NCBI GenBank assembly: GCA_026182355.1
Contig: JAPFBL010000241.1
Location: 376,501 to 440,500 of the forward strand
Source of the DNA: Hermatobates lingyangjiaoensis
Taxonomy: Eukaryota > Arthropoda > Insecta > Hemiptera > Hermatobatidae
Direction: 5' to 3'
DNA: 64,000 bases
Part shown: positions 4,690 through 63,556 of the stretch, in pieces
How the letters are laid out: each line of letters starts with the position of its first letter
Numbering within the stretch: the first letter of the stretch is position 1
Program-made: the position numbers and the translations under genes
The notes under the pieces: generated by a model
Database searches by the model: none
What the model saw: only the letters and a program-made list of their open reading frames with translations
Told to the model about the DNA's origin: nothing

Positions 4690-4935
4690 AGAAATAAAGC
4701 TCATACTAGGGTAAATGGATAAAACAAAGTCTCTACATACAAAAAGAAGCCTTTTTATTCACCACGTCTCTAACATTTCGTGTTCATCGACAGGTAAACT
4801 TACAATGGAAGTAGTGGTGAACCAAACATTCTAACGATTACTAGAAGTTTACCTGATGATGAACACGAAGTGTTCGAAACGCCTTGGATAAAACGACTTC
4901 TTTTTGTGTGTATTTAGGCTTTGTTTTATTGTTTT
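4690..4935. repeat. Palindromic element with hammerhead-like core, GAACAC/GTGTTC stem
   Basis: Arms about 4700-4790 and 4840-4932 are complementary (GATAAAACAAAG... / ...CTTTGTTTTATTG). In the right arm 4853-4879 reads CTGATGA, T, GAACAC, GAA, GTGTTC, GAAA, the best stem of all copies. The left arm version is degraded (TCGATGAACACGAAA). Confidence 0.8.
4853..4879 (+). ncRNA. Hammerhead-like core, GAACAC/GTGTTC stem
   Basis: CTGATGA, T, 6-bp perfect stem with GAA loop, GAAA. Layout of the hammerhead catalytic core (CUGANGA, stem II, GAAA) with one extra base before stem II. Stem III and the cleavage site were not identified. Confidence 0.5.
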
Positions 4936-5323
4936 ATCCAAGTATCAATAAATAAGATACTATTACGGATTGCACAACTAATGAAAAATAAGCTGGTTTG
5001 TTTTCAACACTACATCAGCTTAAAAAATCATATTTATTGAATATGAGGAGTTAAAAGATACTCGTATTGCAATATTTTCTAAATTATTTTAGTCAAATAA
5101 AGATAGGAAGTAAGTTATTTCCAATAAAACAAATTTTATTCTTGTATAACTGCTTCAGACAAGTTGCTATGCCTTACTAATTACGTTATTATTTTTTTAT
5201 AATCTAAAGTTACCTTTTCTCTAACTAACTAACCATCATTTAAAATATAAAGATATTTAAATAGTACTGTATTTAAAGAAGTAAAATGTATGTATGTTTT
5301 ATGTTTGCTGTTATTTGTTACAG

Positions 5324-40593
<35,270 letters not shown>

Positions 40594-42794
40594 CTGGCGC
40601 TAGCAGATGCCGTTGATTCGTCCTTATGATACGAACAGCGACCATCATAAGCCCCTCTACAATTCACCGTCTTTCAACATCCAAAAGCCCCCCCCCCCCC
40701 CCTCTCTCACGAAACGTGAAACTTTTTCTACAACAAGAATTCCTTTAAAAGACTATAAATCCGAAGGCAGTTTCATAACATTCATTTTAAATGTTATGCT
40801 TCGTGTACATTTATAAATAATATATTTATATACATACAAGTTACATTGTGTTTTCAAGTGTAAAAAAAAAAATGGGACTCTTACTTTAAATATTCAACCT
40901 TGTGCGGCCATTGTAAATAGATTGTTACATATTATTTGTAGGCTGTTAAGATTCTGGTGAATATAAATCCGAGGAGTATGAAAGAAGATATTATGCTCAC
41001 AGTGACATTGAGTATGAAAACTAAAAAAAAAAAAAGTGTCAAAATATTACACTAATTGTAATTGTAAAATAAGCAAAAAAACTTGTATAGATTCGTAATT
41101 TATTTCGTAAACGTGAAGTTTGTACTATTCAACTTGTGGATACTGGGTCCAAACCGGGGCTGATAGTACTAGGTATTCCCAAGACACCGTGTACTTATGT
41201 CAAATTAGATCTTTGTGCCCATTGTATCATTTATTTATAGTGAAAAAAAAAAAAGTTTTGTTTCCAAATAAAAAAAAAAGAAATGGAATGCATATTGATA
41301 GGAGAAGGATAGTTTCTACCCTTAATACAATATAAAGTTTCCTTATCATTTATGAGATGTATGCGTCATTATACCGTGCAGGATCAACAACTTCTTCAGA
41401 CAAACCCCTTTCTCAGGGATGGTTTTTTTTTTTGCATTTTAAATTTATAATTTCAAACTTGAAAAAAAAAATTTTTTTTTTTGTGCCCCTAAAATATCTT
41501 TTTTCTGTATTTAATATTTGGAAACATTTTTAATTTGGTGCTGTGTTTTCGATTTTGTGATTAAAATTGTACATACGATTCCTTGTTACAGTGTATCACC
41601 CTAGCTTTACCTACTAAAGATCTTTTCCCATTCAACATTGATTAATGTCACTCAGTATGTTATTGATTAACTTTAGAATTTTTAAAATGTAAAAATTTAA
41701 TTTTCTACATAATTATAATTTATTTTAAAGGTCCTTTTTGTTGATTAACTTGTATTTATTATTTATTGAAAATATGTTATTAATAAAATTTCCTGTTTAC
41801 CCTGTATATATATATATATATATTTTAATAACAATGTCATAGACAATAAGACATAGATCTCACATATTATTTCAGTTGATCCATTGTGTGAGGATTCTAT
41901 TTTAACGTTTCAATTTAATACACACATCTCAATTTTATCTCATTGTATGGTATTTCTAAATAAATTTTTTTTTTAAAATACATTTATTCATTATTTTGTC
42001 TCTTGTTATTTCGAGAAGAAAGAGTGATGATTTTCATGTTGGATCCTCTTTCAACTGCTTTTTTTTTTTCATTTTTCCCAAACATATGTTCAATTATTAA
42101 TGGTATTTACATAAATGATATGTTTTTAGGGAAAGTACTATGGTTGAACGAATACATTTGTTAATCCGTGGGGTTTAAGGATTACTATTGACATACGCAA
42201 ATTGTATTAACATGTAGATGTATACTACCAGAAAAAACACATGTAAAAAAAAACAATTGCAGTGTTTTAGTAGCGACGAAAGCGGGAGTAGTATTGAATT
42301 GAATTTACAATGCTTCGTCTCTTTTTTCAATATTGTTAGTTTTGCTTAAACGAGTCTCTTGTATATATTTATACATATTTGTTACCTACTTTCACAGAAA
42401 TAAGGCCAGCATATTATTTTGAGCTACAGAGACTGATCTGGAACATTGTTTATCATTTTTTTTTTAAGAAAAAAAAATAATATTTTTTATCACCTCCCTA
42501 ATAACTTTTTTCCTTTAATTTTATTCTGCACTGAGTGTGAAATTTGTATTTTACTTGCTTTTAAAGCCCTATTGTTCATTAAAATAAAACCTACACTTCA
42601 TTTATGAAAAAATAAAATGTACTCAGAACCACAATGAAATGATACGGTGAAGGTTGACTGTAGTAATAAATTAATTTATAATAAAAATTAAAATAATACT
42701 GTTTAATTATTTCCAATTAAATCCTTTACCCTTAAGATATGATAACCGTATTTTCTTAAAACTGATATTTATGTTACTACTTCCTTATTACGAT

Positions 42795-43010
42795 ATAAAG
42801 ATTTCACATAAACACGTGAAATAACAATCAATGATCAAACCACAATAAGAGATGGGACAACAAGACTAAGATCTTTCAACCGTAACAAGCGGTCTTCGTC
42901 AGAGTCAAAAACCCAACAGTTGGGTTTTTGACTCTGACGAAGACCGCTTGTTACGGTTGAAAGATCTTAGTCTTGTTTTCCCATTTCTTATTGTGGTTTG
43001 ATCATTTATT
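42795..43010. repeat. Near-perfect palindromic element, CTGACGA / GACCG family
   Basis: Arms about 42827-42917 and 42919-43008 pair almost perfectly with no real spacer (CCCAACAGTTGGG at the tip). Cores: minus 42874-42902, + 42934-42962: CTGACGA, A, GACCG-CTTGTTA-CGGTT, GAAAGATCTTAGTC. The left side carries TTTCACATAAACACGTGAAA outside the paired arms. Confidence 0.92.
42934..42962 (+). ncRNA. Hammerhead-like core, GACCG/CGGTT stem
   Basis: CTGACGA, A, GACCG-CTTGTTA-CGGTT, GAAA, followed by GATCTTAGTC. Recurs at 27226 and 46717 on + and at 10208, 27155 and 42874 on minus. Confidence 0.45.
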
Positions 43011-43183
43011 ACGATATATTTAATGGTTCATTAACCGTGCAATCTCAACACCTGTACCTCAAAATAACACATACATTTAACAGGAATTCGAAATGGTTGA
43101 ATAGCAGCGATATCATGATGTTCCTATGAATACAATCCCTATGGTTTGCTCGCAATTTTAGTTAATTTATTAATAATATTCAT

Positions 43184-43490
43184 GGGGGTCAGGTTAGCTC
43201 AGTGGTTAACGTACTCGCCTCTGAACTGATACGTCCAGCTATCAATACTCACCTAGCCCTCGATTCATTCGAGAATACTTCGTCCCTCGGAGAGGACGTT
43301 AAGCCGTCGGTCCCGAGCCTGTACGATGTCAGGTACTCGTTAAAGATCCCTACTTTAAATATACTTGAGTTAGGCAAAATTTAGGACTCCCAATGTGGAA
43401 TAACCAATCTTCATTGTGTGGTATCATAAAGGTCTGAATGTTCGGCATACGTGTGTTCCCTTGTAGGGGGACAGCCACCGCAACCTAAAA
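43184..43490 (+). mobile_element. tRNA-derived SINE, nearly full length
   Basis: Head GGTTAGCTCAGTGGTTAACG, body CTCGATTCATTCGAG, CTCGGAGAGGACGTTAAGCC domain, GAGCCTGTACGATGTCAGG, and 3' tail TTCATTGTGTGGTATCATAA...GCCACCGCAACCT. A 60-codon open frame in it is meaningless. Sits between the MARK and METTL22-like genes. Confidence 0.9.
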
Positions 43491-45316
43491 AGTATTACCT
43501 ACTACCTACTACTTACTAATAATAGTAACCATATTAATATTTGGTTTCTGTGTTAGGCACATTTTGTGTATAAATAAAGGAGAGGTAAGGGACTTTCTGT
43601 AGAAGTTTATTTTTTGTTTAAATAAATTTAAAAAAACGAATCGAAATAAATTTAAATGACAATTAAGGAGGATTACATTTTTGAATATTTAAGTTTTATA
43701 GCAATATACCTCGAAAATTCAAAATAACTAACTCCCTGCTACAAAAGTAGATGCAACGGATATACATTGTGTTTATTATTGAGTGAACGTAAATGAAGCC
43801 TTATGAAGTGTTGCCAAAATTTGACAAACTCAACATATCAATTACTTTAGCAATTTATTTGGAAAATTAAACATTGAGGATTACTGTTACTAAATTTGTT
43901 ACAAAAAAAAAGAAGAAGTTATTTCATATGGTTGAACAATTTGACGTCTTATTGAAAATTATAAAAATTATTTATCATTAAATTATTGATATGTTTGTCA
44001 ATGTTTTCAATAGTAACTTTTGTTATTAATGTTGAATGGCTAATTATAAAATTAAAAACTTTTGGCTGTAGCGAAAAAGTTTTCTATACCTTTTTACTTT
44101 AATAAGGAAAATCTGTATGCATACTTGAGAGAATTATTACTAATCTATGTTTTGAAGCCCACATGTCATGTCTTAGTGTATGAAGAAATTAGAAACCAAG
44201 GTTCGTCGAATCTCAGTGTTACAAAGTACACTACTGGGTCAAAGATTTAGTGAACAATTCGTCTATTTACTGTTATATGCTTCTCTTGGTCATACGAACT
44301 TAAAGCTCAAGGAAACTTGAAATACGTTTTGATTCTCTTCTTTTGAAGTTTCGTGATGGAACATGGTAGCAAGTTACGTATGACTGTTTAGTTACGCGAT
44401 ACTTTAATGTCGTTTGCAAAATGTAAATATGACGAAGTAAAAATGCAATTAATTTGAATACTCATTGCGAGTTGAAGGTATTTTAAACACCAAATTCCTG
44501 TTTGTGGCAACCTAAAATAACCGTAACTTTTAGTTGAGGACTCTAATTACACAAAATCCGTTATTATGTTATTAAAATACCGAGTTTCAGAAAACTAGAA
44601 TAACGCATTTGTTATTTAGTAAGTAATAGTTTCTACTAAATTCTACATATGAATATTGTAATATACCTAAATGGTACTCTAAACAAGCTATTTTCGGAAT
44701 GACAAAACAGTTACAGTTACGTAACTGTTACAGAACATTTACAGTTACCCAATGAATACTAACTGTATCTCCCATAATTTGAAGTAACTAGTTAATATAT
44801 ACATTCATAATTGTGAAATATCTTTGAGACATTAGTAGTAAGTTGCCAAATAATTTTTGATGAACTATTCATATATTAATTTGCTATCATAGTTACTAAT
44901 TTGAGAATTACTAAAGCAACAATTTGGTAAACAGTTATTTAAAATTAATTTATTAAGAGTCTTATTTATCTTTCAGACATAAAATTACTATTTGGTTTGT
45001 AAAAAAAGATACATTTTTGAAAAAAATAGGTTAATTTTAATTGTGAAACACTGAATTATATCAGGTTTCTTATCAATATGTGTAGGTTAAGTACTGTGAT
45101 TTAAAGACGTTGATATTTCAATCCTTAGTTAAAAAAGTACTTAAGACTATATTAATCTAACTTCGATTTGCGTATAAAAATAATGTAGCCTTAAATTATT
45201 TTATAGTGACCCCAAAATTTAGGATATGTGCCAGTTGGCTACGTTCCCTTACACCCAATTGATGGTCTTTGTTTCCTATTCATTGAAATTTAGCGGTTCA
45301 TTTCTTTCTTGATGAC
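43491..45316. other. Intergenic region upstream of the METTL22-like gene
   Basis: AT-rich with no recognised element. The promoter of the METTL22-like gene should lie near the 3' end, but I see no convincing core promoter motif. The open frame at 44062-44250 lacks any recognisable domain. Confidence 0.5.
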
Positions 45317-45410
45317 ATGTCTACCTCAAATTTGAATGTGGTGTCAGAATTGTATAGTGAGATGACAGTTGTTAGTGGGAAGCAAATTTCCGTAGAGGAT
45401 AATTTAAATG
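45317..45410 (+). CDS. METTL22-like exon 1 (putative start)
   Basis: ATG at 45317 begins MSTSNLNVVSELYSEMTVVS and runs to DNLN plus one base before a GTATTC donor. It is chosen because phase 1 joins exon 2 and because the VVSELYS segment resembles the N-terminal V.SDVHLY region of METTL22. An ATG five bases earlier closes at once. A promoter or earlier non-coding exon could not be recognised, so an upstream start is possible. Confidence 0.62.
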
Positions 45411-48400
45411 GTATTCTTAGTGAAATTCTATATTTGATAGTGGTCTAATTCGGGCCTTATAGTGAATTGTACTATTATTTTGTTTTAGGTAGTTTAATAA
45501 TTGTGAATGTAGAAAGAGGAAAGTGGCCGTGTGGAGTTAAAACCAAAACCAAAGATGAAGATGGTGATTTTATCCTTCATCGAATTCCTGCGGAAATAAA
45601 TCTCGGTTGAGTTGTTAAGTATTTTCAAAATTTCATAGACTCTTAAGTTTTATTATTAATAATTGGGAAAAGATATTTAAAATTGCTTTATTTATAAAAG
45701 TTTTTTTAGTGAATTGGATGTGAACTTTTTTCCCAAGTATATTTTCTAAATATTCTTCATTATTTAGAAGTCGAGTGCACCACAGCGTTGAAAGGCGTGG
45801 GAAACCAGTTATGGAGAGGTTGCATTGTTACTCAGTGACTTCATAGTCCACAATTCAAGTTACTTCAAAGATAAAATAGTATTAGAATTGGGGTCTGGAG
45901 TTGGTTTAACCAGTATTGTTGCATCAAACTTTGCCAAAGCCGTTATTGCAACAGGTAATCAATATTTCAATGATTTTTTTTATTGGTACTGGTTATTAGT
46001 TTACATAATATATATTTTTCGCACATAGTTGTGTATATACATGCACTCATATATAACGTATTTCGTCTTTAATAATGAGTTATAATAGGCTTCTTACAGG
46101 AAATTTAATTCTTCCTGAACGAAATGCAATTTTATCAAAAAAATGCGATTGGTGTGGTAATTCCACAGTTCCACGTCAGTTTTGGTAAAATAAATATTTT
46201 GTAATTCTGTTCTTTTTTTCGTAATTAATTCACATTGTGTGATTAGATTAGTATCGTTGGAGTCATCGGAGTATACTGTTAACAGCCCCTTGGTTCAAAA
46301 ATATTAAAGTGAAATCTCAGACTAGAGTAAGCCAGCAACATTATTTAACGTAGCTAAAATTTATACTTGTCAAACATTTAGGAAACTTTCTCAATAAAGT
46401 TTATTTTAAACTTGACGAGAATTTTTGAAATGCACTTGTATATGTAACACAAGATAATATTTTTTGTTTCAAATGGCCTCCTATTGCTATATTCAACAGC
46501 AGCAGCATACAGACTTGCCACGTGTATATATGGTTGTTTCTTTTTCATTACTATTAAATCAAGAGTGTGTCACCAAATGATTGAATTCTGCAATCAACCT
46601 ACTTAAAAAAATAACAGGCATTTATACACTTAATCCGTAAACTTAAATAAATGATCAAACCACAATATGAAATGAGAAAACAAGACTAAGATCTTTCTTG
46701 AGTTGGGTTTTTGACTCTGACGAAGACCGCTTGTTACGATTGAAAGATCTTAGTCTTGTTTTCCCATTTCATATTGTGGTTTAATCATTGTTTGTTATTT
46801 CACGTGTTTATGTGAAATCTTTTTATCGGTAAACTTAAAATATAAGTGTTATTCAGAATCTGATTAAAATATCCAAAAGAAGTTTAAATTACATAACATA
46901 GTAACTAAAAAGTTTACAACTTCTGCCACGGTGACAGAAAGAATCAAAAAACTATTTATTTCTTGGGTATATTGTAGCTTGAAATCCCTGAGCACATTGA
47001 TATAATAATATCATTGACCACTACCACAAACTTAAAACCAACAAAAGCCCTTATAGATTTTTTTCGGTTTTAGGATCATCACTCATTTTTAATATTATAT
47101 ATTTGGTCTTCTCCAAAACGATTTTATTATTTTGACAATAAATTTAGTTATTCCGTAAATAATGTTTATTTTATTTTGATAAACAATGATATGTTGTTTG
47201 TTTGTATGTTCTTTACAAAAGTTAAAGGTTTGATTCTTCAGTTGACATTCTTGAATGTTATATAGATATTCCTGATCTGGGTATTCTAGAAAAATTAAAA
47301 AGAAATGTTGAACGAAATAGAAACTTATGTAAGTGTCCAGTGAGGGTTTTACCTCTGAATTTCTTTGAAAGGCAGTGGGATTATCAAGTTGAAGAGAGTA
47401 TGAAGGAAGCCGATGTCATCATTGCAGCAGACGGTAAGAAAAAGTACTTTATATTCGATAGAGCTTTTACCACTCGTGAAATACTCTTAGAGAGTCATCA
47501 TCTGTTATTGCATTATATAGTTTACGGTACTTGAAATAATTATTTTATCTCCAGAAGGGACAAAAAAGTAACTTTTCACGTCTAGTTTTCAAGTAATAAT
47601 GTAAGACCTTTAATCCCCGTACTTATAAACGAAGCAATAATGAAAAATCTGGAGTGGCCTACACTCTACTTTACTATAAGTAACTCAATGTCAAATTTCT
47701 TGAGTATATAAAACATAACGTATTATTTAAGCATAACATAAATATCTAAATGGGATATAATTATTAGCATTGCATTCGTGTGGTAGTACAGATAGTGATT
47801 GAAGGACATATCAATTTATAAGCTTATTTTTGTACATCACAAATAATTTATTATTTGCAAATAATTTCATTAGTATAACTACAGCAGTAATAACATTTTT
47901 GAAAAACCAATGTGAACATTTCTTGAAACGAAATATTATCCTACAAGAGAACATGGCTATTGTTCAAATAGCCAGTAGATTTCTTACATCGTTTACTTGA
48001 CATCCTTCTACATTGAATATTAATGTAAAATTTTCAAATTTGAAACAGTAAAATACCCTTTTTTTCTCTGAAAAACATCTTAAACAGCGAAGAAAATGTT
48101 GTTTTAAGCTGATTTGTTAATTAAAGATGTACGATAATTACAGTTATTAATCTCTAAACGAAAGATTTATATTTTGAATTATCTTTTACATTTTTGGTTT
48201 TTAACAGAATTATTATACTGAGAATTTTATGGCTTCTTAGTATTTAATAAGATCATTTTCCATCCCCTTTGTCAAATAACATATATACGAATTTTTTTTT
48301 AATGAGTGTTATCATTTACCTGCACAACATTATTCCTCTTACATCTCTTATAAGTCAATAATATATTTTAATTTTTCCATTAGAAACATCAATTTTATCT

Positions 48401-51400
48401 CAGTGGATTCGCTCAAAAAATTTCTAAGTCAATGTAAACAATGTAACAAAATACAAAAAATTCGACAAGTATAGCAGGTGATCTCTTAGTCTAGGGTAAA
48501 CAAAGAGTTTTTATATCGTTATTGCTCTTTCCCGTAATTGAAACTTCATGATTTTTTTTTTTATGAATTGCTAATTTTTTGTTCCATTTTTGGTCAAATT
48601 TTCATTACTTTTTAACGAGCCGTTTAGCGTCAAAAAAACATTTTCTGAAAACACAAATCGTACTGTAACGCCCCTTTAGCGAATGTAATTTTAGAAAAAA
48701 ATATCTCAACTCATTCTCCATATAATGTTCTATTTATAGGCATAGTTTCATCTTTGTCCGTCAAACAGTATGGCTTGTATCGCTCTCACAAGGTTTGAGA
48801 TTGAATTATAAGTCAAAATTTTTACATTTTATTGAAAAAAAAATATTTCCTGTTGTTTTAAAATTCTGAATATATTTTTCGTTTGTTCGATTTGTAACTT
48901 CAAAGATAATGTCAAAATTTCAAAACTCTAGGGTTATCAGTTTAGGAGAAATAAATGTTTTAAAAAAAACGGTTTTTGGCAAAAAAAGTGACTTTCCCAT
49001 CATGCATAATTCTTCGCAAACAATAGGGATCTTCGTCTTTATGAGGCCCATTTTTGTGTAAAATATCAACTTGATCCATCAAAGATTCTGGACCGTAGCG
49101 TGGTAACAAGCAATGCTAACACACTCACCCACCCACACACACACAGACATCATCGTAAAAACGTCATAAAACGACTTCTGGGACCTCAAAACATGTAATT
49201 CCGTCAAAATCTCGAGATCGAATTTTTTCACGATCACTATACTTTATTTATAGTAAAGTAAAAAAGGCGGGGGAATAATGGAAAAACAGGGATGTAATCC
49301 AGGTTGTCCAACCTAATTATTTTGTTGATATTGATTTTATTTTTTATTGATATTTTTTATTATTTTTTTTTAGATATGAAATGAAATGAGATCTGAAACA
49401 CTTAAGGTGGCTTAGTTACTAGCAATAGTTACTATATCACTGAATGAAAGTACTATTTAATGAATACCATAGTATCTAGACATCGTTTTGTTTAATAGAA
49501 ATATAAAAATATCCTTATGACATTGAATACATTAACGTAACCTTTCGAAATCAGCTTGAACCTTCCACTATTTCATATTACAAAAGAATCTCGTAGTACG
49601 AGTCCCTTATGGCAAGAGCAATTTGGTTTACGAGCAGCCATGCGTAAAAGTTTTTGTCTCGTATAAGGAATAAACATTTGTTGTACGAGCGACCGTCTTT
49701 CTTACGCCTAGATGGTCTCCGTTTTAAGTTTAATAGATTAATAGAAACATGATAATTTCTTGCATGTGTTTTTATTATATATATTTCATATGAAATATTG
49801 TTCATTTTTTTATAATTCTACTATTTCTGTTTTAAAAAAGTAAACTTAAAAACAGGCATTTTCGGAACGGACTATTTATTTTCATATTCATTTCAATGCA
49901 CAAATTTGCTTCGTAATACGAGTAAATCGCAAAGGGAGCTCTGTATGGGAACGAATCAAACTCGCACTTCGAGGTTGTTCTGCATAGTATTTCTTTATTA
50001 GTGTTTTATGGTAAAAGAATAGTAAAAGATTATTATTTAATCTTTTATATGTTATTACTTCTAGTTAATACTTTAAACTAACAATTAGTTTGAAAGAGTT
50101 TTATCTATATAATTACTTTATACATTATATTTTATTTAAAAATGTATATTCTAACTTTACCAAGATGATTTGTTAATATTTCATACTTACTTTAAATTAT
50201 TTTTTAACAATATTCATACTTGTATGTATGGTTACTAGTTTGAAAACATGAGTGAATATTATTAATTATTAGTTAATTATTAGTAATTAATTATTAGTTA
50301 ATTGGTTAGTTCCACTGAGGTTAGTAATATTAGAATTAGTAATAATACAATCCGTCATATCTCGTAAAGTCTCAGAAAAGCTCGACCGGTTTAGAGTCCG
50401 TCTGGATCCCATCTTCAAGAGCACCTAACTGACTGTGAATGTTATTTTCCTATAACTTACCTATATATGTCATCTACATTGTGGAATCAGTGTTGTCTGT
50501 GTAGTTAATTTTTTTTTTCATATTTCTTTAATTGCTATGTTTTTTCCTTTTATTTCTTGTTTCATTATCTATTTCCAGTTCCTTGTGTCGTCTTTTAAAT
50601 GTTATTAGTGGTTTTGTTAAGATGTCGGTTTGGTGGTTTGTTTGTTCATTGATTATATTGTCTGTCATTTTATGTTTGTATATTTCTATTTGTTCCTGTA
50701 TGTTCATTCGTTGTCCTTTTTGTCCCGTCTGTAGTAAGTCCATTGTGTTTTCCATACTGTCTGGGTTATGTCCAAATTTGTTTAAGTGGTGTGCATAGTT
50801 TGATTTGTTTGTGTTGTTGGTGTAGTCTGTAATGTGTTCTTTGAATCTGTCTTTTAGTGTCCTTCCCGTTTACCCGATGTAGTTTTTACCACAATCTTTG
50901 CGTTTAATTTTGTATATTCCGCTTAGAATATTTAATATTCTTAGAATATTTTCTTAGAAGAGTCGCAATTTTTTCGCTAGGTTTACCTATGTAAGTTAAA
51001 GACGCGTATCTGTTCGTTATCGTTAAATAAACACAATAATAACAGTACAACACCGGGAATAACGAACAGATACGCGTCTTTAACTTACATAGGTAAACCT
51101 AGCGAAAAAATTGCGACTCTTCTAAGAAAATATTCATTAAAAATAGGTTATAAAACGAATAATACTATAAACCAAATCACAAACAACACAATAGAGAACA
51201 AAGATAATAAATTAAGATAATAAAGAAACAAGCGGAATATACAAAATTAAACGCAAAGATTGTGGTAAAAACTACATCGGGTAAACGGGAAGGACACTAA
51301 AAGACAGATTCAAAGAACACATTACAGACTACACCAACAACACAAACAAATCAAACTATGCACACCACTTAAACAAATTTGGACATAACCCAGATAGTAT

Positions 51401-54400
51401 GGAAAACACAATGGACTTACTACAGACGGGACAAAAAGGACAACGAATGAACATACAGGAACAAATAGAAATATACAAACATAAAATGACAGACAATATA
51501 ATCAATGAACAAACAAACCACCAAACCGACATCTTAACAGAACCACTAATAACATTTAAAAGACGACACAAGGAACTGGAAATGGATAATGAAACAAGAA
51601 ATAAAAGGAAAAAACATAGCAATTAAAGAAATATGCAAAAAAAAATTAACTACACAGATAACAATCTATGAGATAGCAATCTATTGAGAGACACAGCAGG
51701 CGGCAGCCTCACGTTACATTCCTGAACAGTAAATAAAGAAATCCATTTATTCTGAATAAAAACAATCTGGAACTGGTAAAGTGAACTGAAAAATATCTTA
51801 ACAGTTCAATTCATTGGATAAATATAACCATTTAACTATTTTACTATTAGTTTTTTTCCTTTCCAAGATTATCTGGTGAGGCAGTGTCTACCCTGACTGC
51901 ATGTCCCTGATAGAAATACATTGCCTTATCTGTTACGTTATCATCAATCTCGACCGGTTTCTGAACTCGTTCGTTGTCAAGAGCTAACTCCCCCTTCCTT
52001 CTGTATATTGTATACATCTGTATACTAATAGTATCATTTAATTATCAGCAATTAATTTGTAATTAGTATAGTAATTAATGAAACAAATTTTAAATTTTAT
52101 TTACCTGTGCAATACAGATTACAATTCGTACCATCATTAAAGAAACGTGTTCTCGATAACTTTTTTCGCTTATTTTTTTTTTCAGTTATTTATGATGACG
52201 ATTTGACAGAGGCTTTTGTGGAGACGTTGAAAAAAATCTTATTACTCAAGAAGAAAGAAGTGTTTATTGCTTTAGAAAAAAGGTAAACTTGTGTTTAGTA
52301 TTTAAAAAAAAAAATTATTATGCTATTGAAATTCAAAATATTGAAATTGATTTTGCATTAGTCAGAGGTCCTTATGACTTTTCTCTTTTTCTTTTCAATC
52401 GTATTTTAGTAATTAGGTTTTTGTCGTGTTGTTTTCGTAATATTTCATTTCCTTATTCTAGAGCTGCATGTTGTCAATTAATTTTATAAAACACTTTTTC
52501 TTTTTCTCGGAGTTTGGTCAGGGTAAATATATGGAATCACCTTTTTGCCAACGTTTCGTCTTTATTTCAAGACATCCTCAGGGCTATAAACTAACAAAAA
52601 ACAATAAACAATGGACATTTTTTCATTTCTACTTTAAAAACATCATAAACAAATTGAAAAAAGAACTTACTGAAGGCTTGGTTCTGTTACATTTACAAAC
52701 AACCGTTAACTGTCATTACATGTGCTGTTCCAAGCGACAAATTATTGAACCACTGTTTTTTTAGTACAATCCATTATATATAAACATATATATCACCATA
52801 ATATATATCTATAATACATTTATAATAAATTATTATTTTAACAATCCTTAAAATAATTTAAGGATTGTTAAAATAATAATTTATTATAAATGTATTATAG
52901 ATATATATTATGGTGATATATATGTTTATATATAATGGATTGTACTAAAAAAACAGTGGTTCAATAATTTGTCGCTTGGAACAGCACATGTAATGACAGT
53001 TAACGGTTGTTTGTAAATGTAACAGAACCAAGCCTTCAGTAAGTTCTTTTTTCAATTTGTTTATGATGTTTTTAAAGTAGAAATGAAAAAATGTCCATTG
53101 TTTATTGTTTTTTGTTAGTTTATAGCCCTGAGGATGTCTTGAAATAAAGACGAAACGTTGGCAAAAAGGTGATTCCATATATTTACCCTGACCAAACTCC
53201 GAGAAAAAGAAAAAGTGTTTTGTGAATATTTTGTGGTCAAGAAAACAGTACCGAATTAATTTTATATCTAATTATTTGAACCAGCGCGAATTAATTAATT
53301 ATGCGTATTTGTTAATGTAATGGAAACAATCGATAGACTAGAGAGGGGTGTTAGGGAGCCAGGTTAGCTCAATGGTTATCGTACTAGCCTCAGAACTGGT
53401 AGCTCCAGGGTTCGATACCCATCAGGCCCTCGATTTATTCACGTGGGAGGTGAATAAATTTGAGCACGTCGTCCCTCGGAGAGGACGTTAAGCTGTCGGT
53501 CCCGAGCCTGTACATAACTGCTTACATAGGTCCAGGGTTCGATACTCACTCTGGCCCTCGATTTATTTACGTGGAAGGTGAATAAATTTGAGCACGTCGT
53601 CTCTCGGAGAGGACGTTAAGCTGTCGATCCCGAGCCTGTACATAACTGCTTACATAGGTCCAGGGTTCGATACTCAATCTGGCCCTCGATTTATTTACGT
53701 GGAAGGTGAATAAATTTGAGCACATCGTCCCTCGGAGAGGACGTTAAGCTGTCGATCCCGAGCCTGTGCATAACTGCTTGCATAGGTCCAGGGTTCGTTA
53801 CTCACTCTGGCCCTCGATTTATTCACGTGGAAGGTGAATAAATTTGAGCACGTCGTCCCTCGGAGAGGACGGTTAAGCTGTCGGTCCCGAGCCTGTTCAT
53901 AACTGCTCACATAGGTCCAGGGTTCGATACTCACTCTGGCCCTCGATTTATTTAAGTGGAAGGTGAATAAATTTGAATACGTCGTCCCTAGGAGAGGACG
54001 TTAAGCCGTCGGTCCCGAGCCTGTACGATGTCAGGTACTCGTTAAAAATCCCCTACATTAAATATGCTTGAGTTAGGCAAAATTTAGTACTCTCATTGTG
54101 GAATCAGTCTTCTTTGTGTGGTATCATAAAGGGCTCAATATTCGGCCTACGTTTGTTCCCTTGTGGGACAGCCACTGCAACCTTAAGGGTTGTCTACTAC
54201 TACTAGAAAGGGGTGTTCAAGCTGTGACCCGTGGTTTATATTTCATTGACCTTCTGCGAATCATAAAAATATAATCGAATTTGAATCAATCAGACATGAA
54301 AGATACACTTGACTGTAATGGTGTGGTCAATTGACTTTAAAAATTCTGGTAATTAGTGGTACAATCAGTCAATTGGCTATAAAATACTGGCACCAATGTT

Positions 54401-56414
54401 TAATATGAAGTTTTAGACGGGATTAAGTTTCATCATGAAAAACATAAAAAAATTCAATGGCCTCATTCATTTATAGGATTAGATACATACAGCGTAAGTA
54501 TAACTATAGTTACGTTAGAGTATTCTTTATACAGACATGGACAACCTGCGGCCCGCGGGCCATATACGGCCCAAGACGTGTTATGCGTCGACCTTAGAGT
54601 TTATCTAGAATTTTTTCTTCATATTAAAAATTCCTTTGCTTTTTGCTTACTAACTAAAGCTCACCTAGTCTTTTGGAAGGATATTACAACTTCGGAAAGA
54701 TATAGAATATATATAGAGAGAGAGAGCGCAACAACATCAAATCCTTTAGTTTTTTTTTATATGGCGATACTAATCTTTCGATGTTTTCATTGTGATAACT
54801 GCTTCATTATGATTATGATATAAAGAGATAAGTACAATAATTTTCATAAGACTAATAAAAATTTAAATAATTATTGACACGTTAATTAGCACGTAGTATA
54901 GTATACTACGTGCTAATTAACGTGTATACGTTGTTAATCGTGTTAAGGTTAATTCTATATATATATATATATACGCAAAACAGTAATAAATTGTCGACCG
55001 TGGGACAGATATGCAACACAAAAAGGATAAATTGGGATGCGGTCAGTTTCTTCCTCTTCCAATCAAACTCTCATTGCCGACGTTTCGATTTTATTCAAAA
55101 TCTTTTTCAAAGGCCAAAGTAGGAATGTTTGAAAATGAACAAACTATTACAAATTACATTACAAAACAGTATGGAAGTTTGGAAACTTCCATACTGTTTT
55201 AGTAGTGTAATTTGTAATAGTTTGTTCATTTTCAAACATTCCTACTTTGGCCTTTGAAAAAGATTTTGAATAAAATCGAAACGTCGGCAATGAGAGTTTG
55301 ATTGGAAGAGGAAGAAACTGACTCCATCCCAATTTATTCTTTTTGTGTTACATATATATATATATACAAAACACTTTTTCTTTTTCTCGGAGTTTGGTCA
55401 GGGTAAATATATGGAATCACCTTTTTGCCAACGTTTCGTCTTTATTTCAAGACATCCTCAGGGCTATAAACTAACAAAAAACAATAAACAATGGACATTT
55501 TTTCATTTCTACTTTAAAAACATCATAAACAAATTGAAAAAAGAACTTACTGAAGGCTTGGTTCTGTTACATTTACAAACAACCGTTAACTGTCATTACA
55601 TGTGCTGTTCCAAGCGACAAATTATTGAACCACTGTTTTTTTTAGTACAATCCATTATATATAAACATATATACTTATACACATATTATAATATATATCT
55701 ATTATAATATGTATCACCATAATATATATCTATAATACATTTATAATAAATTATTATTTTAACAATCCTTAAAAATATAAACTAGATAACATTGCATCTT
55801 TAACTATTTATGATGGAACTATAAATCCTACTTAAATTGTCTGTATCTGTTTTTCTATTGCAAGTATTATTAGTATTTTTGATATGTATCATTTCTTTTA
55901 TCAATCTTTTATTGTATGAAGTTTCATAATCTAAAATTGATGCATTCTCAAATTGAAATGTGTGTTGATTTTTAATTGCATGAGAGGCTAGGGCACAAAA
56001 CATTTTTTTATTTTTAAAATTCGATTTGTGTAAAGCTAATCTATCTTTTAGATATTGTTTGGTTTGACCTATGTATACATTATTACAATTATTGCAAGGA
56101 ATAGATTATATTGCAAGCAATATAATTTGTCAATAATTTGTCGCTTGGAACAGCACATGTAATGACAGTTAACGGTTGTTTGTAAATGTAACAGAACCAA
56201 GCCTTCAGTAAGTTCTTTTTTCAATTTGTTTATGATGTTTTTAAAGTAGAAATGAAAAAATGTCCATTGTTTTTTGTTAGTTTATAGCCCTGAGGATGTC
56301 TTGAAATAAAGACGAAACGTTGGCAAAAAGGTGATTCCATATATTTACCCTGACCAAACTCCGAGAAAAAGAAAAAGTGTTTTGTGAATATTTTGTGGTC
56401 AAGAAAACAGTACC

Positions 56415-56460
<46 letters not shown>

Positions 56461-59400
56461 ATATATATCAGTAGCCCTCTGCTTGTACGAGTGGACGCAC
56501 GTGCCTCTTCCTCTTCCCTTCTTCTTCCCTTCTTCTCCCTGACGACGAACTTCAGTTCGAAATATCGACCCAGTAAGTTTTCTCGCTTCTTCTATTTGTT
56601 GTCTTTTTTCATTTATATATATATATATATATATACCATGATAAACGAAAAACGGTCCGGCAGGACAGATAACACTTAAAATAAACAGTGACACATAGAC
56701 TGAAACATACAAAAGACTCACTTTTCAATATTTTGACCGTAATGGCGGTCGACATATTGAAAAGCGAGTCTTTGTTATGTTTCTGTCTATGTGTCACTGT
56801 TTATTTTTAGTATATATATATATATAGTAATTAAATGAAACAGTCCAATTGACTTTTAAATAAAAATGAATTAAAACAAAGGTGGTACACAGATGGACAC
56901 AGGAGTAACTCACTTCTATATTTCGACGATTTTCGTCATCAGGAAGTGAAGAGTCCTGCAGGAAGGCAGAGCGGTGAGCGAACACGGTCAGGAACAGCAA
57001 GACCGTTAGTCAATACCCCCACTAAAACTACGAAACGAGAAGGGAGGGGAAGGAATGAATTTGGAAGAGCCAAATTAAGAAGTAAAAAATGAATAAAATA
57101 AAAATAAAGAAGAGATATGTAAATTAATAATGAAAAAGTGCATATATTTAAAAGAAATGAATGTTTGAGTCCAAGAGAAGATCCAGTCTCCTGGACTCAA
57201 CCTCAACCGTTAATTTTTTTTTCTAAATGTATGTATTTTTTTCATTATTAATTTACTTCTGTCTTCTTTATTTATATTTTATTTAACTCTTCTATAATTT
57301 TTATTTTGTTATTCTTATGTTTAATTAACTACTATATTTTATTCGTTTTTTGACTTCTTAATTTGGTTCTTCATTACCTTCCCCTCCCTTCTCTGTTGGT
57401 GGTTGTAGTGGGGATACTGACTAAAGGTCGTGCTGTTGCTAATCGTGTTCAGTTGTCGCCCTTACTTCTGCAGATCTCACTTTCCGGTTTAGTCATAAAC
57501 CTTAGCCCCTAGTGGGGCCATGCCGCTCTACCACAAGCTGCATTGGCTTATATATATATCCACAGGTTCTTTGAGCTAGGGGCTACAAAGGCCACTGACC
57601 TTACCTGATGCTGAGCAGGTTCAGTAGGACCATTGGTCCGGAGTTTGTTCCGAAACTCTTAAAATAAGTCGGTACTACGGCCGGCGAGGCCCATGGAGGG
57701 ATTCTCTCTCCATCCCGCCAAATAAGGTTGGATTCGTAGTGGCTGTTGGTTCTCATCCAAGTTGAGTAGACCCTTGTGGTTGCTGTGTGAGAAGCAGTAA
57801 CATCTTGAGAGGATGCCTGCTTAGCATACGGGGGAGCTAGAGACCCCAAACCATTACCAGTGGGAACGGGTCTTGAACTCAGCTGATTGGACTGGACAAC
57901 TGGTACTTGCCTAGTAGAAGTTCGGTTCTTGACGGGAGGTCTTGACGATTAGGTACCACCCCTTCGAGCCCATTTCTGTTCAAGCCAAGGAAAGACCTTA
58001 GAGAGTCTCACAACTAGCACAGACCAGGTGTCGTTTAGCCAGCGAGAAGTTTGTAATCTCTCTCTATGACTTGTTTCTCTTGAGGTACTAACAACACTCT
58101 TTACAGTGGCGCCCTTAACAGGGGTTCGATTCACTACTAGTTGCAAACCCTGATCCCGGAGTAAGGAGCATATTGCCCTCTTCGGAGGGGGACGACCGAG
58201 TTCAGAAGAACACTAGGGTAGACCTAAAACTGTTAGGTATTGTTGGTTAGCCTGACCATAATTTAATCATAAACCTGCTTTGCTTTGTCTTTTAATATTC
58301 GAAGCTTTTGCCTCCGTGAGTTTTCACTGCGAAAACTATATGTGTAGTGATATCGTAAATTAAATATTGTTTCTACTGAATTAATGAAATATTAGTAATA
58401 TATATTAATTATATCACTTCATAATTATACTAGCTCTGGTAACCTACTGTTAACGTATAGTTCAGTTTTATAACTAAGAATGATAAATCAATTACTTTTA
58501 TGCTGAATATTTTGTTGGAAGACTAAATAAAATACCTGGGCTTTCCATTTTTCCACGTATGATTGAAGTTTTCCTGTTGTTACTTCGTGGTTCTTACAAT
58601 TTCATGGAGCCCTAGATTCTGCCTTGAAAAGATTCTGATGTTCTTTTACGTCATATCTTCAAATTATTTCTTCGCCTTCACAATTTCTTTAAAATAGTTT
58701 TTTTTTTCTTAATAAACTCAAAAGATAATTCGTTCATAGCTGTCCTTTTTTGGAAAGTCTAATTGTCTAAAATTCATAACATAAACTTGTTGATATTTGC
58801 AAGATTAAAGAAAAATAATTTGAAGATATGCGATTTAAATGTAATTGCTTCTAAATACTTTCATCAAAAAAACTTTTATTGATTCGTAGATAAATACCAA
58901 AATGAAAAGAAATAGCAGTCAAAGGCAAATTCACTGTGACATCAACCTTTGAGCTACCTAAAACCTTCCCATGATCAACCTCAATTAACATGTAAATTTT
59001 CACTTGTCTGTCAGAAACGAAAAATGATCCTTTAAATGTATTGGTCTAAAAAATAAAACATATACTTCATTATATAACATGTAAAGAGACGAATACACTT
59101 GCAGTCTCTAATTTTTGGTTGAACCGTCATCAGGAGAGTAGAGATAGGGACACCAAGCGCACTTGCGAAGCGATGGTTGGAGTCCCTATCTCTACTCTCC
59201 TGATGACGGTTCAACCAAAAATTAGAGACTGTAAGTGTGTTCGTCCCTTTACTGTGTATCTATAGTTTACTGTGAAACGTATATATATATAAATGAAAAA
59301 GACAACACAGAAAAGAAACAAGAACACTTACTAGACCAATATTTTGAACTGAAGTTCGTCATTAGGAAGAGAATAGAAGGGAAGAAGAAGAGGTACGAAC

Positions 59401-60284
59401 TTCAGTTCAAAATATTGGTCCAGTAAATGTTATTGTTTCTTTTCTGTGTTGTCTTTTCCATTTATTTATCTGTCCGGTTTGGACTGTTTAGTATTTTATT
59501 TATATATATACACACTCAAAATAAACTGTGACACATATACAGAAACATAACAAAGACTCACTTTTCAATATTTCGACCGTAATATTTAATATTTCAACTC
59601 AAGTTGACTGTCGTCCCTCCGTCAATTCACTTCTTCTACTGAGGACGACCGCCATTACGGTCGAAATATTGAAAAGTGAGTCTTTGTTATGTTTCTGTCT
59701 TGTGTCACAATTTATTTTGAGTGTTTCTGTCCTGCCGAACCGTTTCCGTTTATCATATATATATATATATATATATATATGAAGTTTTGAAGAATCATGT
59801 CAATCTATTGGTGTTTTCTTGAAGCCTTCAAGTATATTCAATTTTCAATTACAATTACCTATTTTTGATTTTGGTTCCATATTAAATTATTCCTTTGAAT
59901 CAATAGTAGAGGTAGGTGAGTGAGTGTCTATCATGTTTATATAAACATGTTTATATATTCGTATATACAATTAGTGGAAATAGTTTGGAAACATCGATAC
60001 TTATAATATATCCTTTATGAAATAATAAACATTCAAAAATCCTTTCCTAACAATCTTGTAATAAACATGTGTGATTTTTTTTTCAAATTTTTAGGTACGT
60101 CTTCACGGTGGAAGATCTGGATTCAGTTGCTCCCTGCTACCATCATTTTAATGAATATATAAAAAAAAATTGGAATATTCCCCCAATGTCAAAATGGAAA
60201 ATTTCATCAATTGATATCGATTTTCCATCCTACTTTAAATATGAAAGGTCTAAACAATTAATTTTATTTAAAATTTCATCTTGA
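45317..60284 (+). CDS. METTL22-like methyltransferase gene (6 exons, gene-level span), with a +1 frameshift
   Basis: Exons 45317-45410, 45489-45605, 45768-45954, 47266-47433, 52186-52282, 60095-60284. The parts code for a seven-beta-strand methyltransferase of the METTL21/METTL22 group, close to METTL22: acidic DEDGDF segment, VGNQLWRG, motif I VLELGSGVGLTSI (SAM binding), ADVIIAAD, VIYDDDLTEAF, and a C-terminus ending YFKYERSKQLILFKISS. METTL22 methylates lysine in a KOW-domain protein (Kin17) in mammals; the substrate here is inferred. Exon 3 is 187 nt although both flanking introns are phase 1, so the frame breaks between QLWRG and LLLSD. Without that extra base the product would be about 283 residues, shorter than the roughly 400 of the human protein, mostly at the N-terminus. 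Gene identity is solid; functionality is doubtful. Confidence 0.85.
45489..45605 (+). CDS. METTL22-like exon 2 (acidic segment)
   Basis: Acceptor TTTTGTTTTAG, donor GTTGAG, phase 1 on both sides. Codes SLIIVNVERGKWPCGVKTK then TKDEDGDFILHRIPAEINL. The DEDGDF stretch matches the DEDGDLDVV region of vertebrate METTL22 that precedes the methyltransferase fold. No known catalytic role. Confidence 0.7.
45768..45954 (+). CDS. METTL22-like exon 3: SAM-binding motif I, frameshifted
   Basis: Acceptor TTATTTAG, donor GTAATC. The first part reads VECTTALKGVGNQLWRG in the frame set by exon 2. The second part reads LLLSDFIVHNSSYFKDK and IVLELGSGVGLTSIVASNFA in the next frame, which is the one that joins exon 4. 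The two blocks are contiguous in the family, so one T too many lies at 45820-45821 (GGTTGCA). As read, translation stops at a TGA shortly after. ELGSGVG is the glycine-rich SAM-binding loop. Could be a disabled allele, an assembly indel, or, less likely, programmed shifting. Confidence 0.85.
46640..46825. repeat. Palindromic element, one core deleted
   Basis: Left arm 46650-46698 ends in ATCTTTCTTGAGTTGGG, so the left core has been lost. Right arm 46699-46790 has the core at + 46717-46745 (CTGACGA, A, GACCG...CGATT, GAAAGATCTTAGTC). Outer word TTTCACGTGTTTATGTGAAA at 46798-46819. In intron 3 of the METTL22-like gene. Confidence 0.85.
47266..47433 (+). CDS. METTL22-like exon 4
   Basis: Acceptor TTATATAG, donor GTAAGA, phase 1 both sides. 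The split codon gives Asp at the position of the conserved acidic residue ending motif II (CTD in relatives). It then reads IPDLGILEKLKRNVERNRNL, VRVLPLNFFERQW, and KEADVIIAAD, corresponding to motif III/post-I and strand beta4 (ILFAAE in METTL22). Confidence 0.85.
50528..50936 (-). pseudogene. GIY-YIG endonuclease domain, Penelope-like, broken (left arm)
   Basis: Minus-strand reading with YIG then an in-frame stop (50870-50872), TGRTLKDRFKEHITDYTNNT, HLNKFGHNPDS, MDLLQTGQKGQRMNIQEQIE and a Lys/Arg-rich end. The mirror of the right-arm copy with a few substitutions, e.g. DILTKPL versus DILTEPL. The reverse transcriptase is missing, so not functional. Confidence 0.82.
51233..51626 (+). pseudogene. 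GIY-YIG endonuclease domain, Penelope-like, broken (right arm)
   Basis: Reads SGIYKIKRKDCGKNYIG, stop, TGRTLKDRFKEH, then an open frame to 51626. GIY and YIG motifs and the arginine of the RFKEH helix are the active-site landmarks of this nuclease family. In Penelope-like elements the domain follows the reverse transcriptase and nicks the target. Interrupted by one stop and without the polymerase. Confidence 0.85.
52186..52282 (+). CDS. METTL22-like exon 5 (VIYDDDLTEAF)
   Basis: Acceptor is a long T-run plus CAG; donor GTAAAC, left in phase 2. Codes IYDDDLTEAFVETLKKILLL then KKKEVFIALEKR. The (F/I)YDDDLT motif is the most specific METTL22 signature, following beta4 and contributing to the active site. 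VFIALEKR matches AILSVEKR. Only about 200 bp downstream, the intron holds a nearly spacerless 734-bp palindrome. Confidence 0.9.
52488..53221. repeat. 734-bp spacerless palindrome, CTGAGGA / GTCTT-AAGAC family
   Basis: Symmetry axis between 52854 and 52855. Every block I compared pairs, with only a single A/A mismatch next to the axis. Cores: minus 52554-52581 and + 53128-53155 (CTGAGGA, T, GTCTT-GAAATA-AAGAC, GAAACGTTGGC). The arm sequence recurs in the same orientation at 55368-55775. The open frames inside are mirror images and do not look coding. Confidence 0.95.
53352..54190 (+). mobile_element. tRNA-derived SINE with five-fold tandem core
   Basis: Head GGTTAGCTCAATGGTTATCG with B box GGTTCGATACC, then the core unit. 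The B-box word TCCAGGGTTCG starts at 53404, 53531, 53659, 53787 and 53916, giving units of 127-129 bp that each contain half a head, the CTCGATTTATT body and the CTCGGAGAGGACG domain. The single 3' tail follows (GTGTGGTATCATAAAGGGC, GCCACTGCAACC). Open frames are repeat artefacts. Confidence 0.93.
54534..54605. mobile_element. hAT-like MITE end (GCGGCCCGCGGGCC)
   Basis: ACATGGACAACCTGCGGCCC and GCGGGCCATATACGGCCC form the GC-rich left end known from many hAT-derived MITEs. No matching right end was found nearby, so probably truncated. Confidence 0.4.
54877..54925. repeat. 49-bp near-perfect palindrome
   Basis: Two 24-bp arms (starting ACACGTTAATTAGCACGTAG) around a single G at 54901. May be the remnant tip of a larger element. 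Confidence 0.9.
54990..55366. repeat. Palindromic element, GATTTT/AAAATC stem family
   Basis: Arms 55007-55180 and 55182-55353 pair nearly perfectly, with (TA)n at 54957-54972 and 55353-55366. The core equivalent in the right arm, 55254-55282, reads TTGAAAA, A, GATTTT-GAAT-AAAATC, GAAACGTCGGC; the left arm has its complement. The last part matches the GAAACGTTGGC of the CTGAGGA family. Confidence 0.88.
55368..56412. mobile_element. Penelope-like palindrome with internal GIY-YIG fragment
   Basis: Left arm 55368-55680 and right arm about 56128-56400 are inverted copies, nearly identical to the arms of 52488-53221. Cores: minus 55434-55461, + 56290-56317. Between the arms lies a minus-strand GIY-YIG endonuclease fragment (55800-56110). 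Right edge runs into a 40-bp (TA)n. This is the direct physical link between the hammerhead-like palindromes and a Penelope-type retroelement. Confidence 0.85.
55800..56110 (-). pseudogene. GIY-YIG endonuclease fragment, Penelope-like
   Basis: Minus-strand reading CNNCNNVYIGQTKQYLKDRL (YIG at 56067-56075), then ALHKSNFKN, ALASHAIKNQHTFQFENASI, LIKEMIHIKNTNNTCNRKTD and a stop at the low-coordinate end. C-x2-C before YIG and the following Gln-Thr and basic helix are typical of the nuclease in Penelope-like elements. The GIY strand upstream is degraded and the polymerase is absent. A different subfamily from the 50506 copy. Confidence 0.8.
56416..56457. repeat. (TA)n microsatellite
   Basis: About 20 TA units at the outer edge of the preceding palindrome. 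Confidence 0.97.
56459..56620. repeat. Half element with core CTGACGA / GAAC-GTTC
   Basis: Core + 56539-56562: CTGACGA, C, GAAC-TTCA-GTTC, GAAATATCGACCCAGTAAGT. A pyrimidine-rich CTTCCTCTTCCC stretch precedes it. (TA)n on both sides (56416-56457, 56616-56634). The palindromic sibling with the same stem is at 59285-59465. Confidence 0.75.
56539..56562 (+). ncRNA. Hammerhead-like core, GAAC/GTTC stem
   Basis: CTGACGA, C, GAAC-TTCA-GTTC, GAAA, followed by TATCGACCCAGTAAGT. Confidence 0.5.
56635..56826. repeat. Palindromic element, tip collapsed
   Basis: Arms 56672-56740 and 56742-56808 pair (AGTGACACATAGACTGAAAC / GTTTCTGTCTATGTGTCACT). The tip is TTTTGACCGTAATGGCGGTCG, with CTGANGA deleted. 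Family of 22395-22910 and 59505-59775. (TA)n at both ends. Confidence 0.85.
56827..57010. repeat. Half element with core on minus strand
   Basis: Words ACACAGATGGACACAGGAGTAACTC and CACTTCTATATTTCGACG match the left arm of 5757-5960. Core minus 56921-56942: CTGATGA, C, GA-AAATCG-TC, GAAATATAGAAGTGAGT. The opposite arm is not adjacent. Confidence 0.7.
57011..57429. other. Region with diverged inverted copies
   Basis: Segments at 57030-57200 (GAGAAGGGAGGGGAAGGAATG, AAAAAATGAATAAAAT) recur in inverse form at 57235-57395 (CCTTCCCCTCCCTTCTC, ATTTTATTCGTTTTTTGAC). Pairing is broken by indels; class unknown. Confidence 0.55.
57430..58225. other. GC-rich block of unknown origin
   Basis: About 800 bp near 50% GC within strongly AT-rich DNA. 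Two minus-strand open frames of 65 and 82 codons (57949-58146, 57601-57849) have balanced amino-acid composition, suggesting a decayed coding or 5' region of a transposon on the minus strand. I recognise no domain. A short inverted word pair (TTAGCCCCTAG at 57503, CTAGGGGCTA at 57577) lies at the left edge. Confidence 0.4.
59075..59285. repeat. Palindromic element, CTGATGA / GGTT-AACC family
   Basis: Arms about 59080-59158 and 59180-59262. Right-arm core 59200-59220: CTGATGA, C, GGTT-CA-ACC, AAAA (the usual G of GAAA replaced), then ATTAGAGACTGTAAGTGTGTT. Same family as 2718-2995, including the ACCAAGCGCACT loop word. Confidence 0.85.
59285..59465. repeat. Palindromic element, GAAC-GTTC stem family
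   Basis: Arms 59299-59378 and 59385-59462 (AATGAAAAAGACAACACAG / CTGTGTTGTCTTTTCCATT). The core in both arms is degraded (minus strand: CTAATGA, C, GAAC-TTCA-GTTC, AAAA). Confidence 0.82.
59505..59780. repeat. Palindromic element with strong GACCG/CGGTC core
   Basis: Arms about 59510-59584 and 59655-59725 (AAACTGTGACACATATACAG / CTGTCTTGTGTCACAATTT). Core + 59639-59666: CTGAGGA, C, GACCG-CCATTA-CGGTC, GAAATATTGAAAAGTGAGT. The left arm lacks the CTGANGA tip. (TA)n at 59757-59780. Confidence 0.88.
59639..59666 (+). ncRNA. Hammerhead-like core, GACCG/CGGTC stem
   Basis: CTGAGGA, C, GACCG-CCATTA-CGGTC, GAAA, followed by TATTGAAAAGTGAGT. The fully paired 5-bp stem makes it one of the clearest copies. 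Confidence 0.55.
60095..60284 (+). CDS. METTL22-like last exon
   Basis: Acceptor TTTTTAG. One base completes Arg, then YVFTVEDLDSVAPCYHHFNE and IDIDFPSYFKYERSKQLILF, then KISS and TGA. Matches the FTLRHLDV...YDHF and FPQLLVYERLQQLELWKI C-terminal strands of METTL22. Overlapping AATAAA signals follow at 60290-60299, only a few bases past the stop; another is at about 60464. Confidence 0.88.
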
Positions 60285-63184: not shown

Positions 63185-63556
63185 CGCACTTTTGACTGAA
63201 ATAAGTAAAGTATATATGACCAAAGTTTTGGAAATTTTTGAAAACTAAATTCCAGCCGGAATTACTCAAGTTGAAAGGCAGGCACTCTCATACAGACAAA
63301 CATAGTAAAAAAACAAAATATATCTTGTATTTATAAATTTCGAAATTAACAGACTTCATGCAATCAAAAATATTATCGCTCTAAGTAAAAAAGTTGCAAT
63401 CACGTATATGCTTTAGAAGATCTAGTTGGGAGTATTTATTCAAGCCTTTCAAAGAGCCCAGAGCGTCTTACTTAGTGCTAATAGTTTCAGAATTTGACTA
63501 ATACCAATCCTAGAAATACTGTGTATGTGATCTGTACAAGATGGTTATGTGTAAAG

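Follow-up and report, generated by a model that had tools for sequence, protein, structure and literature searches.

Minimal type I hammerhead motifs with an extra core base in head-to-head Penelope-like repeats of Hermatobates lingyangjiaoensis

The motif that recurs in the window analysed here (64,000 nucleotides of contig JAPFBL010000241.1 from Hermatobates lingyangjiaoensis) is a type I hammerhead in which stem III is a loop-less palindrome and an extra base is present at position 10. We consider it highly probable (about 0.88) that the repeats come from the 3' parts of Penelope-like elements (PLEs) with such minimal hammerheads, that a dimer joined through the palindrome would cut at H17, and that the repeats were inserted as two copies at a time. 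The evidence consists of the anatomy of the motif, three kinds of covariation, linkage to PLEs, the head-to-head order of the copies and an excess of (TA)n beside them. A more far-reaching version describes a PLE-borne lineage of hammerheads that would cleave only when two molecules join. Stem III would be a palindrome without a loop, base 10 would be almost obligatory and in some families would complete the AUG of an ORF (A9-U10-G10.1), the core pair would be naturally swapped (U3-A8), and the lineage would have come to occupy ~150,000 sites because the element primes on the two strands of (TA)n and inserts as mirror-image pairs. Taken as a whole, this version is tentative, and we rate it at a little short of even odds.

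A recurring core with one extra base

The sequence-only reading had described a repeated grammar of CTGANGA, one base, a stem and GAAA, and all of the sites that it named were present; for its minus-strand sites 2798 and 5826, C3 lies at 2819 and 5847. We searched the 64-kb window for stems II of at least 3 pairs with loops of 3-12 followed by GAAA. This search returned 20 copies with exactly one base between CTGANGA and the stem, compared with a chance expectation of 0.13 (mean of 60 first-order Markov sequences), and no copies in the window with spacers of 0, 2 or 3 bases. In 322 kb fetched independently of the motif (the window together with RT and GIY-YIG loci and their neighbours, excluding a minisatellite at 23.9-25.5 kb), all 24 strict matches and 54 of the 56 relaxed ones had one free base, which upholds the claim of a single base before stem II for nearly every copy. 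Across the 910-Mb genome (1,629 contigs), CTGANGANG..CGAAA gave 148,122 matches versus 1,463 with the pattern reversed, stem pairing not being required for a match.

The stems at the named sites are generally paired as had been stated, with one mismatch at 46717 (GACCG/CGATT). Closure of the stem with C, also part of that description, is not universal, because the A10 family (27226, 42934 and 10236 on the minus strand) closes stem II with a G-U pair. Among 64 distinct strings from the 100 genome matches listed, stem II pairing beyond the forced G-C averaged 2.58 positions versus 0.62 after shuffling (maximum 0.92 of 500), and 43 of the 64 had at least three pairs while 21 had one or two. The loci examined contain 21 distinct outer-4-bp stems; the motif is therefore not one sequence by descent, and the stem covaries as had been proposed.

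Families differ in the extra base, which is U, C or A. When it is U, A9-U10-G10.1 spells AUG, which is in frame in the element at L068, but a start codon cannot account for the C10 and A10 families. In IMG/VR, 31 complete type I hammerheads with stem III ACGUCG..GACGU have no extra base and 2 have one. The latter two, at L117:12754-12783 and L154:2077-2111, carry U or C at position 10. One extra base between A9 and G10.1 also occurs in the plus-strand hammerhead of chrysanthemum chlorotic mottle viroid, for which the available part of the report describes a moderately lower rate with A10, harmful effects of C10 and G10, and an increase with U10 (PMC3705267). That hammerhead belongs to a single viroid RNA, whereas the base varies over many families in Hermatobates, and C10, detrimental in the viroid, is nevertheless present among them. 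The increase with U10 in that study reportedly concerns the cleavage rate.

The window also contains repeats outside the ribozyme set. A minisatellite of ~38-bp units (CTGAAGAGAAGGTGAATGGAGGGGGG.. on the minus strand) at 23941-25400 repeats CTGAAGAGAAGG, and all three of its plus-strand frames are open (497-690 codons). Tandem arrays have units of 55 bp (16138-16538) and 128 bp (53407-54046), and a GGACGTTAAGC-like stretch is common to the 128-bp unit and single copies near 12111, 29286 and 43273. Inverted repeats with no CTGANGA match span 50491-51663 (434-nt arms, 99%) and 62766-63185 (114-nt arms, 97%).

Stem I, stem III and the 3-8 pair

The predicted order of parts would be stem I, CUGANGA, base 10, stem II, GAA, a self-complementary word and H17, followed after the cut (^) by the second strand of stem I. 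For the anatomy we used 40 of the 100 genome matches listed, with flanks, chosen as mostly distinct strings. A self-complementary 4- or 6-letter word lies directly 3' of GAA in 30 of the 40 (3.8 after shuffling, maximum 11 of 1000); these words include ACGU, AUAU, AAUU, AGGCCU, ACAUGU and ACGCGU, and an intact palindrome was absent in 10 of the 40 and in 6 of 29 copies of another set. In the 30 palindrome-bearing copies, H17 is U (20), C (6) or A (4) and never G, and among 42 family representatives it is not G in 39 and G in 3. The strand 3' of H17 pairs with the bases just 5' of CUGA to give stem I: over 33 distinct cases across loci, 2.64 of 4 positions were paired compared with 2.00 when partners were permuted between families, and 0 of 2000 permutations reached 2.64. 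Families were counted by the first letters of the stem, the palindrome, base 10 and H17, simple keys that do not amount to a phylogeny. Examples of family cores are GCC-CUGAGGA-U-GUCUU..AAGAC-GAA-ACGU-U^GGC, CUCU-CUGAUGA-U-GUUGCAAC-GAA-AGGCCU-U^AGAG, UCUC-CUGAAGA-C-GGUUCAAACC-GAA-AAUU-A^GAGA and GACU-CUGACGA-A-GACCG..CGGUU-GAA-AGAUCU-U^AGUC. The hammerhead-like RNA that had been suspected thus has a definable stem I, H17 and palindromic, loop-less stem III, as well as a C3-G8 pair that is swapped to U3-A8 in some families.

Because stem III is reduced to a palindrome, it can pair only with a second copy. Nearest-neighbour energies of the palindrome duplexes are +1.6 (AUAU), +2.2 (AAUU), -1.7 (ACGU) and -9.1 kcal/mol (AGGCCU), and by this calculation AU-only palindromes cannot hold two strands together alone. 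In 2 of 8 scorable cores from 10 picked by hand, the hammerhead fold was 8-9 kcal/mol above the best fold. CUGANGA and GAAA flank stem II as in canonical hammerheads, but the Rfam hammerhead models to which the sequence-only reading had pointed lent it no support, with no hit at the gathering threshold in the window, and none in the window and 20 loci when E values up to 10 were allowed. Given the extra base, the lack of an intramolecular stem III and the lack of an Rfam score, we do not class the motif as a canonical three-stem hammerhead. Its sequence suggests a minimal PLE type I hammerhead as the working type, with self-cleavage as the predicted activity.

In hammerheads C3 pairs with G8, a tertiary contact that structures and mutants have revealed. 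We scanned motif-independent sequence with a pattern of xUGANyA, stem II, GAA and a palindrome, which gave 0.5 matches in total per shuffled control. The 3-8 combinations were C-G 32, U-A 22, C-A 2, U-G 1, C-U 1, G-A 1 and A-A 1, that is, C-G or U-A in 54 of 60, in a scan where the loci chosen for GIY-YIG enrich U-A families. The Fisher value for this covariation, 1.7e-12, is overstated because the copies are related; by our grouping U-A spans six families, one of them doubtful. Genome counts with GAAACGUC (ACGUC) gave 4,229 matches for U3-A8 (control 13) versus 227 for C3-A8 (control 6). The exchange between C3-G8 and U3-A8 is covariation specific to the hammerhead fold. The core of one autonomous family (L068-L070) is off consensus, having A at position 3 with G8. 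A literature search found no mention of a U3-A8 or C3-G8 pair in connection with hammerheads, a weak negative given varying notation and partial coverage, and IMG/VR contigs contained 0, 0 and 0 examples of U3-A8, C3-A8 and U3-G8 in the type I form without the extra base and with stem III ACGUCG..GACGU. For the Poseidon element from Anolis (PAc), the accessible part of the report states that C3G and G8C each kill cleavage and that the double change partly restores it (PMC11167929).

Head-to-head copies and their link to Penelope-like elements

Copies in the window often form palindromes. In the GTCTT/AAGAC family these are the head-to-head palindromes at 10641..10932 (core 10842 on the plus strand, GAA-ACGT-T^GGC, then (TA)n) and 27634..27916 (cores 27731 minus and 27819 plus), a long palindrome at 52483..53226 with 370-nt arms (99%) and cores at 52581 (minus) and 53128 (plus) that read GCC-CTGAGGA-T-GTCTT..AAGAC-GAA-ACGT-T^GGC, and a second copy at 55360..56391 (cores 55461 minus and 56290 plus), which we compared with the 3' end of an autonomous element. 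The A10 family has a head-to-head palindrome at 27123..27286 (cores 27183 minus and 27226 plus, GACT-CTGACGA-A-..-GAA-AGATCT-T^AGTC) and a near-perfect one at 42826..43010 with a 1-nt centre (cores 42902 minus and 42934 plus). Head-to-head palindromes also lie at 2735..2994 (minus-strand core with C3 at 2819, TCTC-CTGAAGA-C-GGTTCAAACC-GAA-AATT-A^GAGA, and a plus-strand partner TTGAAGA), at 4734..4912 (core 4853 plus, CTGATGA-T-GAACAC..GTGTTC-GAA-ACGCCT, palindrome word not intact) and at 5757..5955 (minus-strand core with C3 at 5847, CTGATGA-C-GAC..GTC-GAA-ATAT-A^GACG). A divergent core pair has its C3 positions at 10378 and 10473, the latter (plus) reading CTCT-CTGATGA-T-GTTGCAAC-GAA-AGGCCT-T^AGAG. 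The palindrome at 55009..55355 carries U3-A8 cores, TTGAAAA-A-GATTTT..AAAATC-GAA-ACGT-C^GGC, with (TA)n beyond its arms, and in the one at 59081..59252 (cores 59133 minus and 59200 plus) GAA reads AAA.

Other copies are plus-strand cores. Three have an inverted neighbour: 15205..15260 (CTGATGA-T-GACGAGGTC-GAA-ATAT-T^GAAG; same-family neighbour 15010 minus), 22822..22880 (CTGATGA-C-GACGATTGTC-GAA-ATAT-T^; neighbour 22513 minus, (TA)n downstream) and 59639..59700 (CTGAGGA-C-GACCG..CGGTC-GAA-ATAT-T^; neighbour 59598 minus). No same-family neighbour lies within 1 kb of the core at 56539..56600 (CTGACGA-C-GAACTTCAGTTC-GAA-ATAT-C^GACCCAGTAAGT) or of a degenerate core at 886..940 (CTGATGA-T-TACTAAAGAATAGTC-GAA-AGCT-A^GTT), which is within a longer inverted repeat at 473-1109. 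At 2819 (minus), 15205, 22822, 56539 and 59639 the strand after the predicted cut often resembles a 5' splice site (GAAGTGAGT, CTGTAAGTG, CCAGTAAGT), a donor that stem I would then hide; the likeness may be chance or may reflect a link to introns.

Among 28 listed cores in the window, 21 lie less than 1 kb from another core of their family, making 14 distinct pairs, and all 14 nearest pairs are divergent and none is tandem. The same order was found for GIY-YIG pairs (15 of 15 under 2 kb; 18 of 19 neighbours under 5 kb) and for U3-A8 neighbours under 2.5 kb (21 of 22, among the 100 matches listed). Of the 40 sampled copies, 14 have the motif region repeated in inverted orientation in the 250 nt upstream. 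(TA)6+ was present within 327 nt downstream of 23 of the 40, versus 8.6% of random 327-nt stretches, and within 250 nt upstream of 9.

PLEs with RT and GIY-YIG ORFs carry the same motif in the pLTR or at the 3' end, and the Penelope connection raised in the sequence-only reading is thereby supported. At L068, motif copies at 5111 and 2438 (pLTRs) are on the same strand, a tandem arrangement that might permit a dimer in cis, and one at 8010 is on the opposite strand; in the L050 group the motif is at the 3' ends of the elements. Direct homology between the tails in the window and PLE tails is only moderate. At L068:5341 the 5' truncation of the right-hand Penelope copy falls within the hammerhead, ~27 nt ahead of the predicted cut. 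In L057 and at L071:1845-2148, members of different Penelope families face each other with their 3' ends on either side of one (TA)n tract, a pattern suggestive of repeated hits to that tract.

A two-copy mechanism, its rivals and its meaning

From these features we infer a mechanism in which each repeat would be the 3' part of a PLE holding a minimal type I hammerhead. One RNA by itself cannot form stem III; two RNAs, or a long transcript through its two pLTR copies, would pair via the palindrome into a double hammerhead that would cleave at H17, possibly aided by a protein of the element. Short palindromes have one core per strand, which makes a cis dimer impossible there. The palindromic DNA would arise because the element inserts as a pair of copies, each truncated at the 5' end, that face outwards and meet at the centre. 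The probable route is priming on the two strands of (TA)n, a self-complementary target in which each strand offers the same primer, so that a pair of outward copies would be made and linked.

The palindromes could instead come from self-priming on the antisense template, as proposed in the available part of a study of Adineta PLEs with head-to-head repeats and palindromic junctions (PMC3846280). Centres of only 1-4 nt (I2, I13) are what snap-back would give, but junctions in which one arm extends alone at the 5' side (79 nt at 27634-27916, by eye, in the right arm; ~210 nt at L068) speak against it, as do the self-complementarity of (TA)n and its enrichment downstream. PAc, in the part of the report at hand, cuts both strands at AT-rich sites and extends both (PMC11167929), a further point against self-priming. 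We regard self-priming as a serious contender that nonetheless falls clearly below an even chance. The RNA might also be a relic or non-catalytic, its fold kept for protein binding or for the start of reverse transcription and its cleavage lost or marginal. The PAc ribozyme, as far as the report could be consulted, shows no activity unless protein is present, and insertion in vitro does not depend on the ribozyme; insertion occurs without cleavage, no cleavage-site RNA ends are described, and insertions reach past the predicted cut, so that the template RNA would have been uncut at its 3' hammerhead (PMC11167929). The A3-G8 pair of the L068 family and AU-only palindromes that pair too weakly alone fit this reading as well. 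However, the absence of G at H17 (0 of 30) and the conservation or covariation of catalytic-core residues, the 3-8 pair included, are not predicted by mere protein binding, and we consider this reading less likely than not.

Two readings that dispense with PLEs fare far worse. Metazoan retrozymes, tandem circular-RNA repeats with canonical type I hammerheads, match the type I order, the weak stem III and the very high copy number, and the axolotl is comparably rich, with 126,247 motifs in the available account (PMC7229834). Direct tandem ~300-bp repeats, a non-LTR retrozyme feature, are found in 0 of the 14 nearest same-family pairs (<=1 kb) in the window, all of which are inverted, and with the linkage to PLE ORFs this makes a retrozyme origin very improbable. 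The inverted repeats of a MITE-like DNA transposon, with the hairpin serving in the DNA, for instance as a transposase site, would account for terminal inverted repeats and AT-rich flanks but not for the same head-to-head order in motif-bearing copies with RT and GIY-YIG ORFs, nor for an exchange that involves a hammerhead tertiary pair; we give this origin hardly any credence.

Minimal, dimer-acting Penelope hammerheads are already published: the available parts of earlier reports describe PLE hammerheads without helix III that are thought to act as dimers (PMC7761336, PMC6155905, PMC6466107). The Hermatobates motif resembles the minimal PLE type I hammerheads (Cervera & de la Pena 2014; Lunse et al. 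2017), so far as these are described, in its type I order, a stem III without its non-conserved part, its pLTR location, thousands of dispersed copies and the expected dimers with palindromic stem III. It differs from the hammerheads described in those parts in the extra base 10 of almost all copies examined, several 4- and 6-nt palindromes, U3-A8 families and inverted rather than tandem order (PMC7761336, PMC6155905, PMC6466107). PAc likewise has stems I and II without stem III, a hammerhead at the pLTR-ORF junction and an AT-rich target (PMC11167929, available part); its ORF begins where stem II begins, which would fit A9-U10-G10.1 as the start codon, and its repeats are tandem whereas the Hermatobates copies are head-to-head palindromes. 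Adineta vaga Penelope elements share the head-to-head inverted copies and palindromic junctions, but the consulted part of that paper does not mention a hammerhead (PMC3846280), and Hermatobates has very many copies and (TA)n flanks. The near-fixed extra base, the variety of palindromes and the natural U3-A8 swap may be new.

A previously unplaced motif thus becomes a defined RNA with a predicted cut site. If active, the natural exchange of C3-G8 for U3-A8 would provide evolutionary support for the tertiary pair and a test of how much change the core tolerates. With ~150,000 natural copies in one genome, Hermatobates offers a large data set on the evolution of a two-strand ribozyme, and, with copies lying head to head next to a self-complementary target, the insertion mode of PLEs becomes directly testable.
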